DNA of 64,000 bases from Arenicellales bacterium (GTDB lineage: Bacteria > Pseudomonadota > Gammaproteobacteria > BMS3Bbin11): contig JARFQE010000110.1 in NCBI GenBank assembly GCA_029287915.1, positions 1-64,000 on the forward strand, given 5' to 3'. The translations under genes and the position numbers were made by a program. The notes under the pieces were generated by a model. That model ran no database searches. It was not told the DNA's origin and worked only from the letters and a program-made list of their open reading frames with translations. Positions 3,954 to 48,837 of this stretch are shown here, one piece after another; position 1 is the stretch's first letter; the number at the start of each line of letters is the position of its first letter.

Positions 3954-4760
3954 ATGAGTCAGCAACGAGATGATGAGATTCGCCAGTCAGTTAGAAAAGC
4001 CTATGCTGAAGTTGCAGAGGCCAATACTGCTGGTGCTTGCTGTGGTGAAGCCAGTTCCTGTTGCGGAGTATCGGATGATGAAAAGATTAACACCATCATC
4101 TCATCCCGGCTGGGTTATTCAGAGGATGACAGGATTAATGTACCGGACGGGGCTGATATGGGACTGGGCTGTGGTAATCCTCGTGCGATTGCCAGCCTGA
4201 AGACTGGTGAGACCGTTCTTGATCTCGGTAGTGGAGGCGGTTTTGATGCCTTTCTTGCCGCCCAGGAAGTGGGCGAATCCGGTCATGTCATTGGTGTTGA
4301 TATGACGCCAACCATGTTAAGCAAAGCAAGAGCCAATGCAGAAAAGGGATTGTTTAAGCAGGTGGAGTTCCGTTTGGGTGAAATTGAGCATCTACCAGTC
4401 GCTGACAATAGTATTGATGTCATCATTTCCAATTGTGTAATCAATCTTTCTCCAGATAAGAATCAGGTGTTCAGGGAGATGCACCGTGTTCTGAAAAGCG
4501 GTGGCAGGCTGGCAATCTCTGACGTCGTAGCAACCATAGAATTACCAGAATCGATGCGTAATGACCAATACCTGCATTCTGCCTGTATCGGCGGTGCAGC
4601 AACGATCGACGTTCTGCAACAGATCCTACGGGACATCGGCTTCGCGAATATCAATATACAGCCATTGGAGCAATCGCGTGAGTTTATCCGGGACTGGGCG
4701 CCAGGTGTAAAAGTGGAAGACTATGTAATTTCAGCCACAATCGAAGCAATTAAAAAGTAA
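3954..4760 (+). CDS. arsM: Arsenite S-adenosylmethionine methyltransferase ArsM
   Basis: SAM-dependent As(III) methyltransferase of 268 residues. The Rossmann SAM motif is VLDLGSGGGFDAFLA (about residues 88-102). Three cysteines match the As(III)-binding set of characterised ArsM proteins: C73 (GLGCGNP), C161 (ISNCVINL) and C211 (HSACIGGA). An extra N-terminal CC...CC pair (C29, C30, C36, C37) is typical of bacterial ArsM. It converts arsenite to methylated arsenicals, the substrates ArsS needs. It lies 47 bp after the glycosyltransferase, with an SD-like CGGAG before the ATG, and closes the operon. I see no ArsR repressor or arsenite pump here, so regulation is not visible. Confidence 0.93.
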   Translation: MSQQRDDEIRQSVRKAYAEVAEANTAGACCGEASSCCGVSDDEKINTIISSRLGYSEDDRINVPDGADMGLGCGNPRAIASLKTGETVLDLGSGGGFDAFLAAQEVGESGHVIGVDMTPTMLSKARANAEKGLFKQVEFRLGEIEHLPVADNSIDVIISNCVINLSPDKNQVFREMHRVLKSGGRLAISDVVATIELPESMRNDQYLHSACIGGAATIDVLQQILRDIGFANINIQPLEQSREFIRDWAPGVKVEDYVISATIEAIKK

Positions 4761-31914: not shown

Positions 31915-32682
31915 TCAGCTGGCAGCAATTCCGAGAATAATCCCTTTTTGCTTCAAGCCCTGCAAGATCTCCAGACCACCTGTTAATATCGCTTGCGTGT
32001 TTTCGTGACCCAGCTCCGCCGCAATTTCATTAAGTACATCGGCAGAACTTATATCTTTATTTAACTCCAGTTGCTGCAGTAGTTTAGCGGTGACCAGATT
32101 GATCTCTGTAAACTGAACTTCATCATCGGAATCGCGATAAACGATAATACAAACGGGCTGCTCAGCAGGGTGCTCAGGCTGAAATTCGGGTTTTATTTTA
32201 TGCACAGGCCAGGCGTAGGTTAACAGTAACGCCAGTGGTGACATGACCGGATGGCCATGCAGTAGCGATGACTCGATATCAACCTGTTGCAGATCGGGCT
32301 CTTCCTGCGAAATTGATAATGCCAGCTCAATCCATTCGTAGTGGGCCAGTTCAAACAGGAACGGAGGATCTATTTCCCGCATGCGGTGCTCGGACTGTAA
32401 ATAATCTAAAAACTCGCGTGATATTTCCAGAAAATATGGTGACTGGCAGCGATGCAGAGCATAGAAACTACGTACCAGTTCTAGCCACCGATCTTCATCG
32501 TAAAGGCTTTTCAGAACAGGAAATGTATTACCAAGAAAACCCTGGATGTTATTGAAGAAAAGGTCTCGGTAGATTCCCATTCTCCGGTTCTCGATCTCTG
32601 CGGGTGCCGCTATGTTTTCTGGATCCCTGATATGTGCGGCGAATTCGTATAGCTGCTTTTTCAATAGCTCAGGCTGTGACAT
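31915..32682 (-). CDS. hvfC: HvfC/DUF2063 RiPP maturation partner
   Basis: 255 residues. The N-terminal DUF2063 helical domain begins LLKKQLYEFAAHIRDP and includes YRDLFFNNIQGFLGNTFPVL, FYALHRCQSPYFLEISREFL and LFELAHYEWIELALS. A second domain follows from about residue 170. Proteins of this family partner DUF692 (MNIO) enzymes and bind the precursor peptide. Its start overlaps hvfB by 14 bp, so the pair is coupled. It is last in the operon hvfA-hvfX-hvfB-hvfC. Confidence 0.88.
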   Translation of the reverse strand: MSQPELLKKQLYEFAAHIRDPENIAAPAEIENRRMGIYRDLFFNNIQGFLGNTFPVLKSLYDEDRWLELVRSFYALHRCQSPYFLEISREFLDYLQSEHRMREIDPPFLFELAHYEWIELALSISQEEPDLQQVDIESSLLHGHPVMSPLALLLTYAWPVHKIKPEFQPEHPAEQPVCIIVYRDSDDEVQFTEINLVTAKLLQQLELNKDISSADVLNEIAAELGHENTQAILTGGLEILQGLKQKGIILGIAAS

Positions 32683-33538
32683 GATGAGCTCCGCTATGCT
32701 GCAGTTTTGCGTATTTTTGCTGGTATTCAGAGATTTGCCTGATTTCTGCCATCAGTTCATTATACGGAGGGATGTTGAAATCCCTTTCCAGCAGGGTGGG
32801 CAGTACACCAAATTCAGCATAGGCTTCTTGCAGTAAACCCCAGACTGGATCAATTACATCCGCTCCGTGGGTGTCGACAATCAGATCATCTGCCTCGTTA
32901 TAGTGTCCGGCAACATGGACATAAGAGATACGATCACCGGGAAGTGCACGCAGAAATTCAGAGGCATCATAGCGATGATTGACCGAATTGACATAGATAT
33001 TGTTAACGTCTAACAGCAATTTGCAGTCTGCCTCTTCAACAACCGCATTGATGAAGTCAATTTCATCCATCTCTTTTCCTGGTGCTGCATAGTAGGAAAC
33101 ATTTTCAATCACCAGTTGCTGTTCAATGATGTCCTGTACCTGTCGAATACGACCCGCCACATAGTGAACAGCTTCTTCAGTAAATGGAATTGGCATCAGG
33201 TCGTACAGATGCCCATCATCCGAGCAGTAACTAAGGTGTTCACTATAGCAGCGGATATTGTATTCCTGCATAAACTGCTTAACTTCCCTGACGAAAGCTA
33301 TGTCAAGTTTTTCCGGACCACCGATAGACAGGGAAAGGCCATGTAGAGTGAAAGGATAACGTTCTGTCAGGGCCCGAAACTGCTTGCCAAAACGACCACC
33401 CAGACCAATCCAGTTTTCGGGAGCAACCTCCATAAAACCGACCGGAATTTGGTCCTGAGCGAGAAATTCATCTAATAAACTGCGACGTAGCCCTATGCCT
33501 GCGCCCTGCACCGGAAACTGGGAAGATGAAATATTCAT
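32669..33538 (-). CDS. hvfB: HvfB-type MNIO (DUF692) RiPP peptide-modifying enzyme
   Basis: Multinuclear non-haem iron-dependent oxidase of 289 residues with a TIM-barrel fold. Conserved metal-ligand stretches are LHGLSLSIGG, YSEHLSYC, VIENVSYYA, LLLDVNNIYVNS, YVHVAGHY, DTHGADV and LLERDFNIP. Members of this family convert Cys residues of a precursor peptide into oxazolone/thioamide groups (HvfA of Haemophilus, bufferins). The precursor with four EGKCG units is encoded two genes upstream. It starts 2 bp after hvfX ends. Confidence 0.92.
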   Translation of the reverse strand: MNISSSQFPVQGAGIGLRRSLLDEFLAQDQIPVGFMEVAPENWIGLGGRFGKQFRALTERYPFTLHGLSLSIGGPEKLDIAFVREVKQFMQEYNIRCYSEHLSYCSDDGHLYDLMPIPFTEEAVHYVAGRIRQVQDIIEQQLVIENVSYYAAPGKEMDEIDFINAVVEEADCKLLLDVNNIYVNSVNHRYDASEFLRALPGDRISYVHVAGHYNEADDLIVDTHGADVIDPVWGLLQEAYAEFGVLPTLLERDFNIPPYNELMAEIRQISEYQQKYAKLQHSGAHHVTA

Positions 33539-33540
33539 TA

Positions 33541-34155
33541 TTAATTCTTGTCCTCTGTCATGAAGCGTTTTCTGATCCAGTAATCAACGCCAAAATACTT
33601 TCCGCTACCGATAAAGAAAAGCACCAGCAGCATCACAAAATAAGTCACAGCCCATTCTATACCGTTATTGGAAATGACAAAATTGCCACTACCAGTCAAC
33701 CAGTCATAATTGCCATGTTCCTGTAATAAAGATTTCGCTGCGGCCAAACGCTGTCCAGCCTCCTCGATACCAGCCGGTGGAAACGGGCTCATCGGATCTG
33801 CCACCGCTTGCCAGCCATTATCGATATGCACAGCAAAAATGGCGACCAGCATGGTGATCATCAATGGAATGGATATCCAGCGCACAGCAAAGCCAATGGC
33901 CAGAAGAATCGCACCAAGTACCTCAGATCCGGTGGCCAGCGCTGCCATTAACTCTGGCATTGGCATTCCCAGACCCCAGTCGGGATTGCCGAACCAGGCT
34001 GCCGTATCTTCAAAGCTACTGAGCTTGTTGATTCCGGCGACCCAAAAGACAGGTACCAGGTAAATGCGGAGTAATAATGGGCCGAGAAAATCAACTGCAC
34101 GGGTGCTGTCTAACAGGCGTTGCAGGGGCAGTATACTTTTAATAAGTAAATTCAT
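33541..34155 (-). CDS. hvfX: HvfX/DoxX-family membrane protein
   Basis: 204 residues of the DoxX family with about four membrane helices: LLLRIYLVPVFWVAGINKL, MAALATGSEVLGAILLAIGF, WISIPLMITMLVAIFAVHIDN and a C-terminal TYFVMLLVLFFIG. Some members in RiPP metallophore operons are annotated as Cu-binding maturation proteins. It is the second gene after the precursor, separated from it by a strong hairpin. It may export or protect the modified peptide or manage membrane redox; this is not shown. Confidence 0.85.
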   Translation of the reverse strand: MNLLIKSILPLQRLLDSTRAVDFLGPLLLRIYLVPVFWVAGINKLSSFEDTAAWFGNPDWGLGMPMPELMAALATGSEVLGAILLAIGFAVRWISIPLMITMLVAIFAVHIDNGWQAVADPMSPFPPAGIEEAGQRLAAAKSLLQEHGNYDWLTGSGNFVISNNGIEWAVTYFVMLLVLFFIGSGKYFGVDYWIRKRFMTEDKN

Positions 34156-34224
34156 TTAGTTATCTCCGGTTTATATTATCTGACCTGAGAGTAATTCAAT
34201 AACTCATTCATCGAGCTGAATAAA

Positions 34225-34252
34225 AAAGGGCAGACGATATCGTCTGCCCTTT
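34225..34252 (-). terminator. Perfect 28-nt palindrome between hvfA and hvfX
   Basis: AAAGGGCAGACGAT followed immediately by its exact complement. On the minus strand it is followed by TTTTTTATTC, so it reads as an intrinsic terminator for hvfA transcription. Because the maturation genes have the same orientation just downstream, it probably acts as a leaky attenuator that keeps precursor mRNA in excess. Confidence 0.85.
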
Positions 34253-34287
34253 GGATAAAGTTAAGTGCTTACAGGGTGGGCAGATGT

Positions 34288-34542
34288 TTACTTAGAACCA
34301 CCACACTTACCTTCGCCGCACTTGCCTTCCTTCTCGGCTTTTTCTTTTGCCATGCCTTCGCCGCATTTACCTTCGCCGCACTTGCCTTCACCCATTTTTT
34401 CACCGGAAACCATGTATCCACTTTCCATAGAAGTCATGGCAAAAGGACTGTCAGCAGAAGCAGAACTGATTCCGGCAACTGAACCGATCATTAATGAACC
34501 AACGGCTGCAGCAACGGTTTTTTGTTTAATGGTGTTATTCAT
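34288..34542 (-). CDS. hvfA: HvfA-type RiPP metallophore precursor peptide
   Basis: 84-residue precursor. An N-terminal signal peptide (hydrophobic VAAAVGSLMIGSVAGISSAS, cut near ASA-DS) is followed by a short spacer and a core with four EGKCG units: residues 52-61 and 72-81, Cys 55, 60, 75 and 80. Between the two pairs is a Lys/Glu linker (MAKEKAEK). EGKC cysteines are the sites that DUF692/DUF2063 enzymes turn into oxazolone/thioamide pairs, which bind copper in the Haemophilus and bufferin systems. An SD AGAGGAAG lies before the start. Periplasmic metal buffering is inferred from the family. Confidence 0.9.
   Translation of the reverse strand: MNNTIKQKTVAAAVGSLMIGSVAGISSASADSPFAMTSMESGYMVSGEKMGEGKCGEGKCGEGMAKEKAEKEGKCGEGKCGGSK
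34300..34389 (-). repeat. EGKCG-coding 15-bp repeats in the hvfA core
   Basis: Two tandem pairs of 15-bp units coding EGKCG lie at 34360-34389 and 34300-34329, with a 30-bp Lys/Glu-rich spacer. Third-base differences show the units have been retained at the protein level. Confidence 0.8.
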
Positions 34543-34573
34543 TGTTTCGTCTTCCTCTTTGTTTAGAAAATAA

Positions 34574-46856: not shown

Positions 46857-47348
46857 ATGAATAAAGATAACTCACAAGAGCTTACTATTACACTGAAAGA
46901 TGTTGCTGCCACAGAGCAGCTGGGAGCGCTAGTGGCCGGTGCATTGTCTGATGGAACCCTTGTTTTTCTTCAGGGTGATCTGGGTGCAGGAAAGACCACA
47001 CTGGTTCGTGGGCTGTTAAGGCGCCTGGGTTATCAGGGAGCGGTGAAAAGCCCCACCTATACCTTGCTTGAAGAATACTTGATAGACGGAAAGAAAATCA
47101 TTCATTTTGATCTCTATCGTCTTACAGACCCCGAAGAACTCGATTTAATAGGGATCAGGGACTATTTCGATGATAAGTCCAGCTGTTTTATTGAATGGCC
47201 GCAGCGTGGACTGGGACATCTGCCGCAGCAGGATCTTGAAATCCAGATCTCGCTTGACGGCAGTGGCAGGTCGGCCAGAATCCTGTCATTTAGTAACAGG
47301 GGCATCAAGGTATTGAAAGCAATTCAGGATAAATTCTATTCAGCCTGA
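46857..47348 (+). CDS. tsaE: tRNA t6A biosynthesis ATPase TsaE
   Basis: P-loop ATPase of 163 residues needed with TsaB/TsaD for t6A37 in tRNA. Walker A is FLQGDLGAGKTTLVRGLL; then VKSPTYTLLEEY, IIHFDLYRL and SCFIEWPQRG. Its last 13 bp overlap the convergent DUF302 gene. Confidence 0.95.
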   Translation: MNKDNSQELTITLKDVAATEQLGALVAGALSDGTLVFLQGDLGAGKTTLVRGLLRRLGYQGAVKSPTYTLLEEYLIDGKKIIHFDLYRLTDPEELDLIGIRDYFDDKSSCFIEWPQRGLGHLPQQDLEIQISLDGSGRSARILSFSNRGIKVLKAIQDKFYSA

Positions 47349-47794
47349 ACCCTATCAAAAATCCTGTTGATGTCATCACTCCACTGGGAGAATGTTTTAC
47401 CCATGTTTAAATTGGGGAAAAACACATCCAGTTTCGTTGGATTCAGGGTGACCAGAATAGTTTCATTGCCTTCTGCAAAGATGGTAATTTTCAATGGTAG
47501 AAAGGCGATTAGCTCGGGATACTTTTTGGCGATGTCATGTACAACATCCTCGCGCATAAAAAATACGATCCTGTATTCAGCCGTATTGTAACCTGATGAT
47601 GTTAGACCAATATCGACGCGCTGGACACGTGATACAGTATAACCTTGCTGTGCGATCGAGGTTTGCAGGGCGTTCATTGCCTCTGGAAACGTCATAGCGA
47701 TACGACGCATGATGAGATCGTCGGCAACAGCAGAAACAGGAAATATCAGACAGACAAACAATAATCTGACCAGCGTTGTGCGACTATTCCTCAT
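47336..47794 (-). CDS. DUF302 domain secreted protein
   Basis: 152 residues. A signal peptide (hydrophobic about 8-23) is followed by a single DUF302 domain: MTFPEAMNALQTSIAQQGYT, the VQRVDIGLTSSGY region, VFFMREDV, PLKITIFAEGNETILVTLNP. No catalytic residues are known for DUF302. Its ATG overlaps the stop of the cytochrome-DUF302 gene (ATGA), so the two are coupled and probably work together in the periplasm. Confidence 0.82.
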   Translation of the reverse strand: MRNSRTTLVRLLFVCLIFPVSAVADDLIMRRIAMTFPEAMNALQTSIAQQGYTVSRVQRVDIGLTSSGYNTAEYRIVFFMREDVVHDIAKKYPELIAFLPLKITIFAEGNETILVTLNPTKLDVFFPNLNMGKTFSQWSDDINRIFDRVQAE

Positions 47795-48837
47795 AGCAAG
47801 GCCTCATCAATCATATCCTCATATACCGTTTTCATATCGGTACACATGGAATCGAGCTCGCTATTATTGTAAATCTCATTCATCCGTTTGGGATTAGCAT
47901 ACATCACATGCACCTTACCCTCATGTTCTGATACGGTAACCCTGCAGGGCAGGAATAAACCTACTCGAGGATCAAGCTTCAGTGCCTGGTCAAGGATATT
48001 GAAATTGCAGGAATAGATGATGACCTGTTTCTTATCTTCCTTGCCTTCTTCGGTCAGGCCGGTATCCAGGTTCTGTACCCGAATCAAACGAAAATTCATG
48101 CTGGATACGGCGTTCTTCAGGTTGGCAACGGTTTCTTCAACACTGTAGGGCGATTCTTTTATGATGACAGCAGGTTCATCTTCTATACTACCCTCGTCAG
48201 CGACGGTCTGCGTTTCAAACGTACGCACATACGTCACAATATCGTCTACGTCCTGTTCACTAAGACCATTGTCCAGGAAAGAAACCATTGGTGTGCCTTT
48301 CCTGCCGTTAATCAGTGTCGCCTTGATCATTTCATCGGAAGCAGAAGCGAGGAAGCCTTTATTATTCAGTGCCGGTGCGAGAATAGGCAGGCTGCGTGGA
48401 CGTGACATGGTTACGCCAGTTCCCGGGCCACCTGTACCTGTGTCACCATGGCAACTGGCACAGTGCTGTAAAAATAATTGTTTGCCATGTGTCGCATCAC
48501 CGTTGATCGGTTTTTTTGAATACACAGGGGGGGGACTGTCAGACCAGCTTCGTATATAGCCGATAATAGATTCAATGTTATCATCGCTAAGTTGCTTGAA
48601 TGCTGGCATAACTCTGCCTGGTCGGCCATTTCTGATGGTTTTAAACATATATTCGTCAGATGCAGTAGCCAGAAAATCAGGCAACGAAAGGGGTACACCC
48701 ATACCACCATTGCCATTGTATCCATGACAGGCAACACAATTCTGAAGATACAAGTGCTCTCCATTATGTTTGGCATATGCCTGTAATGATAAAGCCAGCA
48801 AGAAAAATAGAATGGTTGAAATTGGTAATTTGAACAT
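47791..48837 (-). CDS. Di-haem c-type cytochrome fused to a DUF302 domain
   Basis: 348 residues. A signal peptide (1-22) precedes cytochrome c domain 1, with haem site C34-V-A-C37-H38 (LQNCVACHGY) and Met in RVMPAF. Domain 2 has C126-A-S-C129-H130 and Met in TPMVSFL. A C-terminal DUF302 domain (about 235-340) contains VSSMNFRLIRVQNLDTGL, YSCNFN and FLPCRVTV, with two extra Cys. It is exported and likely redox active; the fusion directly links DUF302 to electron transfer. It diverges from amiC across 189 bp of AT-rich spacer that probably holds both promoters. Confidence 0.85.
   Translation of the reverse strand: MFKLPISTILFFLLALSLQAYAKHNGEHLYLQNCVACHGYNGNGGMGVPLSLPDFLATASDEYMFKTIRNGRPGRVMPAFKQLSDDNIESIIGYIRSWSDSPPPVYSKKPINGDATHGKQLFLQHCASCHGDTGTGGPGTGVTMSRPRSLPILAPALNNKGFLASASDEMIKATLINGRKGTPMVSFLDNGLSEQDVDDIVTYVRTFETQTVADEGSIEDEPAVIIKESPYSVEETVANLKNAVSSMNFRLIRVQNLDTGLTEEGKEDKKQVIIYSCNFNILDQALKLDPRVGLFLPCRVTVSEHEGKVHVMYANPKRMNEIYNNSELDSMCTDMKTVYEDMIDEALL

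Follow-up and report, generated by a model that had tools for sequence, protein, structure and literature searches.

A gene pair consisting of a diheme-type cytochrome c fused to a DUF302 domain (the fusion) and a second, secreted DUF302 protein (the companion) is encoded in a 64,000-nucleotide stretch of DNA from an Arenicellales bacterium (Bacteria; Pseudomonadota; Gammaproteobacteria; BMS3Bbin11), hereafter the window, which comprises positions 1 to 64,000 of the forward strand of contig JARFQE010000110.1 (GenBank assembly GCA_029287915.1). The pair is not a local oddity. The constant pairing of the fusion with the companion and its occurrence mainly in sulfur-oxidizing bacteria, together with the loss of a pair of cysteines of its DUF302 domain in a lineage without soxB, point to a sulfur-handling redox device. 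Whether the two proteins form a periplasmic module in which one dithiol and two haems handle a sulfur species alongside a dedicated structural partner, with the putative substrate and direction proposed below, is in our judgement an even call. The existence of a fused, strictly coupled DUF302 that tracks sulfur-oxidation genes, and of natural cysteine-less variants, opens the function of this widespread domain to direct test and suggests that an electron-transfer step is missing from the picture of periplasmic sulfur oxidation.

Organization of the gene pair

The fusion gene (47791..48837, minus strand) encodes 348 residues, recognized from the open reading frame, Pfam and AlphaFold2 as a signal peptide followed by a tandem of class I c-type cytochrome domains and, at the C terminus, DUF302. 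A hydrophobic leader precedes both CxxCH motifs, and the Pfam matches are Cytochrome_CBB3 (2.3e-27), Cytochrom_C (2.3e-22) and DUF302 (2.4e-12, residues 260-316; 47 bits, above the gathering cut-off of 23). Based on Pfam and the structure match, the DUF302 domain occupies residues 221-348 (47794..48177, minus strand). The two c-type haem domains joined to DUF302 that a preliminary description, made from the sequence of the window, had announced are thus present in a single reading frame.

The companion gene (47336..47794, minus strand) encodes 152 residues, a signal peptide (seen as a hydrophobic leader) followed by DUF302, as judged by the same three lines of evidence. Its DUF302 match is marginal, 22.4 bits on the protein against the Pfam cut-off of 23 bits and 23.7 bits in a six-frame search. 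The AlphaFold2 models, built on 66-row family alignments, are confident, with predicted local distance difference test scores of 89.5 for the fusion and 92.5 for the companion. When compared with the solved DUF302 protein 1q9u, the companion model gave a Z score of 18.2 (root-mean-square deviation 2.1, 127 residues aligned) and the DUF302 half of the fusion one of 18.3; over the three entries 1q9u, 1j3m and 7tj1 the matches of both DUF302 parts ranged from Z 14.8 to 18.3. The companion therefore belongs to DUF302 by its fold and departs from it in lacking the cysteine pair. Entry 7tj1 is titled as a fluoride transporter, apparently by mislabelling. An artefact or pseudogene was rejected, the sequence being intact and conserved across 66 distinct loci.

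Distribution and coupling

Of 369 genomes sampled from the class, 61 carry the fusion, against only two of 398 in a sample of the phylum, the window's own among them; the two draws were weighted differently and the former fraction is not readable as a share of species. It occurs in seven of eight genomes of the window's order and in nine of 12, one of them partial, in the order of a second fusion-bearing genome, G217. The conserved association of DUF302 with cytochromes that the preliminary description had left to be looked for thus extends over tens of lineages.

The companion lies directly after the fusion in all 67 loci retrieved, mostly together with flanks of at most 7 kb; two of these (L036 and L064) are one contig fetched twice, and L036 was omitted from the 66-row alignments. 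In the window the fusion stop overlaps the companion start in an ATGA (47791..47794, minus strand), the overlap from which the two genes had been described as joined, and this coupling is kept in related loci: the junction is a -4 overlap in 59/67, -1 in six and -7 in one, with a single 19-base gap that depends on the start chosen by the script. From this coupling, a physical interaction between the two proteins may be proposed. No further neighbour is conserved, as the largest neighbour cluster occurs in no more than 19 of the 67 loci, and the pair is therefore taken as the unit, whole in differing genomic places. A fixed operon with the genes flanking the pair in the window (presumably tsaE and amiC) was rejected, these being found only in the window's own family. 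In a tblastn search of plasmids, no match reached 80% coverage of the fusion.

Haem domains and cysteine pair

The fusion has the two CxxCH motifs with a distal Met each that define a two-domain class I c-type cytochrome. The haem 1 motif, CVACH (residues 34-38; 48724..48738, minus strand), retains both cysteines in 65/66 family rows, the remaining row being truncated there, and haem 2, CASCH (residues 126-130; 48448..48462, minus strand), retains its cysteines in 65/66 and its His in 66/66. Met77 (48607..48609, minus strand) and Met184 (48286..48288, minus strand) are present in every row and are the probable axial ligands of haem 1 and haem 2, respectively, so that both haems are probably His/Met ligated and of the electron-transfer type. 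In genome G067 the fusion (L108:7001-8020) no longer has the haem 2 CxxC but retains the His and Met of that haem.

Within the fused DUF302, Cys277 (48007..48009, minus strand) and Cys298 (47944..47946, minus strand) align with cysteines of the solved proteins 1j3m and 1q9u. Cys277 is conserved in 64/66 rows (Gly in L116 and L117) and Cys298 in 63/66 (Asn in the same two loci, Phe in L112), both being present in 63/66 fusions. The companion has no conserved cysteine, and no Cys column exceeds 7/66. Among free DUF302 proteins, the spacing C-x(20)-C was found in all 12 that the domain model picked from 18 loci. The presence of the pair in solved and free DUF302 proteins indicates that it is ancestral, retained by the fusion and lost by the companion. 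The cysteines of YSCNFN and FLPCRV, described previously as additional ones of the fused copy, are indeed absent from the companion; they are the ordinary DUF302 pair and not extra residues. The Cys specific to most fusions is instead Cys332 (47842..47844, minus strand; 57/66 rows), which is missing in L116, L117 and a deep branch of seven rows; in a 72-row tree all rows without it, the clade of genus g188 aside, fall into that one branch.

Other DUF302 genes were noted in the same searches. A paralogue in the genome of L002/L128, missed by the domain model, has no Cys pair; at L128:6842-7291 lies a secreted, companion-like DUF302 of that genome, likewise without the Cys pair and with no cytochrome gene seen alongside. 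A free canonical DUF302 (131 residues, Cys pair, no obvious signal peptide) lies about 600 bases past genes that we take to be ccmF, ccmG, ccmH and ccmI look-alikes (L129:2109-7297), and another, with the Cys pair and a hydrophobic segment near its N terminus, is located among genes presumably for ParA-like and GTPase-like proteins (L130:6881-7468).

Association with sulfur-oxidation genes

Marker genes were scored in 80 genomes, comprising one genome for each of 33 fusion-bearing families, 12 sisters without the fusion and, as further controls, 35 DUF302-bearing genomes that are not sisters. The latter were taken from 49 drawn at random (14 were left out) out of a hand-made list of DUF302-bearing, fusion-free genomes, mostly one per family and at least 90% complete. 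A further 60 genomes without DUF302 were hand-picked as those missing from the DUF302 match list of the class sample, in which 227 of 369 genomes have the domain. soxB was found in 30/33 fusion-bearing families, in 16/35 of the controls with DUF302 and no fusion, and over the cut-off in 5/60 genomes without DUF302 (Fisher's test, p 7e-5 and 6e-16, respectively, for families that are not fully independent); dsrA was found in 27/33 and in 15/35 of the DUF302-bearing controls. Of 33 further fusion-bearing genomes, 31 had soxB and 24 had dsrA above the cut-off. The window's own genome carries both genes.

In two families sox genes adjoin the pair. Three loci of family f44 (L081, L084, and L088) show the order soxY-soxZ-carboxylesterase-fusion-companion; soxX, soxY and soxZ of L081, upstream of the fusion, each score over curated cut-offs, and soxY and soxZ of the other two were assigned by clustering with those of L081. 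The locus of family f98 (L112) has the order soxY-soxZ-cyaY-fusion-companion. Proteins of the AhpC/TSA (thioredoxin-like) type were placed by clustering near six loci in four families; two loci were confirmed by Pfam, and a further protein, the third of the kind, is found at L127. The neighbour scans covered part of all neighbours.

Natural loss of the cysteine pair

The Cys pair is broken in three of 66 fusions, those of genomes G217 and G317 (L116 and L117, both cysteines; L139 and L141 repeat these loci) and that of G321 (L112, Cys298 to Phe). Among the 33 family representatives, only G217 and G321 have neither dsrA nor soxB, and G317 also lacks both, as expected from its Cys state. A search of the order of G217 showed that in its genus, g188, both cysteines are lost in 7/7 readable fusions; in the sister genus g467 the one readable fusion (G759) keeps all three cysteines. 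L147 (G760) was dropped from the Cys count for want of a full fusion. soxB was found in 0/8 genomes of g188 and in 3/3 of g467, a contrast predicted before the search. The Cys-less genes of g188 retain the haem motifs, the Met residues and the stop/start overlap, and a ratio of nonsynonymous to synonymous substitution rates of about 0.09-0.19 indicates purifying selection, so the loss of the cysteines is not decay.

Taken together, the association of DUF302 with cytochromes in tens of lineages, the probable His/Met haems, the sox and dsr gene content, the sox neighbours and the joint loss of cysteines and soxB lend partial support to the proposal of the preliminary description that DUF302 acts in periplasmic electron transfer, perhaps with sulfur or metal species, the support being for sulfur.

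Proposed function and alternatives

Based on this evidence, it can be hypothesized that the two genes give one periplasmic redox unit, made in step by translational coupling, in which the DUF302 domain of the fusion and the Cys-free companion would form a heterodimer. Cys277 and Cys298 of the fused domain may bind or turn over reduced-sulfur species or protein-bound sulfane (carried, e.g., by SoxYZ or a thiol). The electrons would exit singly by way of the two His/Met haems, with a soluble cytochrome or the terminal oxidase as acceptor, this direction and these partners being part of the proposal. The companion, having lost the active pair, would be the half that serves for structure or docking. 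In a bolder form, the dithiol site on the DUF302 heterodimer would be free of flavin and metal and pass electrons straight to the two haems from sulfane or thiol sulfur delivered by a carrier in Sox-bearing bacteria, the Cys-less proteins of g188 being natural knock-outs reused for other electron transfer; so detailed a scheme is unlikely to hold in full.

The alternative that fares best, possible though clearly less probable than the sulfur-handling module in its general form, is that the pair is an accessory of the Sox carrier, reactivating, oxidizing or unloading SoxYZ (or a thioredoxin-like partner) while the haems drain the electrons; it overlaps with the proposed module and differs in the substrate. 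The position of soxYZ just upstream of the pair in two families, the AhpC/TSA proteins near six loci and the high frequency of soxB would suit such a role. However, the pair lies outside a sox cluster in most lineages, and genome G062 retains the Cys pair with dsrA and without soxB over the cut-off.

The last observation is one of several that weigh against the sulfur-handling module as well. In G341 neither soxB nor dsrA is over the cut-offs and the Cys pair is intact, in an assembly that is 75% complete and has a congener (G133) with soxB. DUF302 also occurs in control genomes of Thermus, Haloferax and Methanosarcina, which are not known here as sulfur oxidizers. The fusion-free sisters carry dsrA in 11/12 and soxB in 11/12, as often as the fusion-bearing families, and the fusion therefore marks sulfur-oxidizing lineages without being required for the trait, the association being partly one of lineage. 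The persistence of the pair in g188 without the cysteines shows that the module is of some use in their absence. Finally, the pair of family f2 (L104 and L107) sits in a Nap-like molybdoenzyme operon and not with sox genes.

Some of these data would suit a general periplasmic electron-transfer hub, a view that we regard as rather improbable. The haems would then carry electrons back and forth, linking several oxidoreductases to quinol or respiratory modules, with DUF302 serving for docking only and the link to sulfur being a matter of lineage. In f2 the pair has a NapG-like gene on one side and a NapH-like gene on the other and lies downstream of a gene for a NapA/formate-dehydrogenase-like molybdoenzyme, and the operon of L104 additionally holds a second dihaem cytochrome; along with the sisters without the fusion, the survival of haems and coupling in g188 under purifying selection fits a hub. 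Such a hub leaves unexplained that the Cys pair is kept in 63/66 fusions and lost in a genus without soxB, as well as the soxXYZ and soxYZ neighbours. With regard to the f2 operon itself, the stretches L104:2634-12277 and L107:1-9243 encode around the pair the molybdoenzyme, which scores far below the NapA cut-off, NapG-/NapH-like ferredoxins and a polyferredoxin-like protein, with what we take to be a hemN-like gene downstream; it is possibly an undescribed respiratory system.

Alternatively, g188 could have lost the cysteines by drift or through a new use confined to that clade, with no bearing on sulfur. Only two independent losses are available (g188 and G321), the lineage-level p of 0.005 comes from a test framed after the first two cases had been seen, g188 has a long stem (1.18) in the gene tree and branches apart from the g467 fusion, and G321 lost Cys298 despite the soxYZ adjoining its fusion; these points weigh against the sulfur-handling module too. 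Coincidence of this kind nevertheless appears doubtful, since the soxB states of g188 and g467 were foretold from their Cys states and the Cys-less genes are under purifying selection. Least probable is the handling of metals or metalloids, with copper, zinc or arsenic bound by the Cys pair and altered in redox state by the haems, because the pair, although of a kind that can bind metal, tracks soxB, and the scanned part of the neighbours contained no metal-resistance gene.

Other features of the window

Elsewhere in the window, a cluster of genes presumably of the DUF2063, DUF692 and DoxX types (31915-34573) lies beside a low-complexity open reading frame with PHLPS repeats (34265-34573), and the reading frame at 3954-4760 looks like what we take to be an arsenite methyltransferase.

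Comparison with known systems

DUF302 genes have been reported in sox clusters (PMC5037610, PMC5248467), with speculation on trithionate and, in the first of these, on periplasmic trithionate oxidation, and between soxF and soxH or soxG (PMC11034169). Others were related to an sqr operon and a potential arsenic oxidase (PMC5061849), adjoin ccoG in a table of low-oxygen data (PMC6515984) or are mentioned in passing (PMC10512742, PMC7760498). The pair described here is likewise linked to sox, but the DUF302 genes of PMC5037610 and PMC11034169 are, in the accessible portions of these papers, free genes with neither a cytochrome fusion nor a coupled pair. Over the accessible portions of the literature on DUF302, mostly outside subscription journals, no cytochrome-DUF302 fusion or DUF302 pair was found described.

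Both proteins share the fold of the DUF302 family (Pfam PF03625; 1q9u, 1j3m, 7tj1), and the fused copy its Cys pair as well. In the solved members DUF302 stands as a short protein of its own, whereas the present gene pair joins one copy to two haem domains and has no Cys pair in the other. The tandem CxxCH domains resemble those of CcoP and other dihaem class I cytochromes (cbb3 oxidase subunit III, bcc cytochrome cc), and CcoP 3mk7 is the best solved sequence match of the cytochrome part (2e-15). Unlike CcoP, the fusion carries a C-terminal DUF302, and membership in that family was rejected at 71.5 bits against the TIGR00782 cut-off of 179.95.

In flavocytochrome c sulfide dehydrogenase and the thiosulfate dehydrogenase TsdA, a sulfur-active site is wired to two c haems. 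The active haem of TsdA is His/Cys-ligated, whereas Met77 and Met184 are present in 66/66 fusions, and the ligation that this conservation suggests speaks against a TsdA type; unlike flavocytochrome c sulfide dehydrogenase, the fusion has no flavin domain in the Pfam scan. In their manner of working, both enzymes would nonetheless be like the proposed module, with the dithiol of DUF302 as the putative sulfur-active site.
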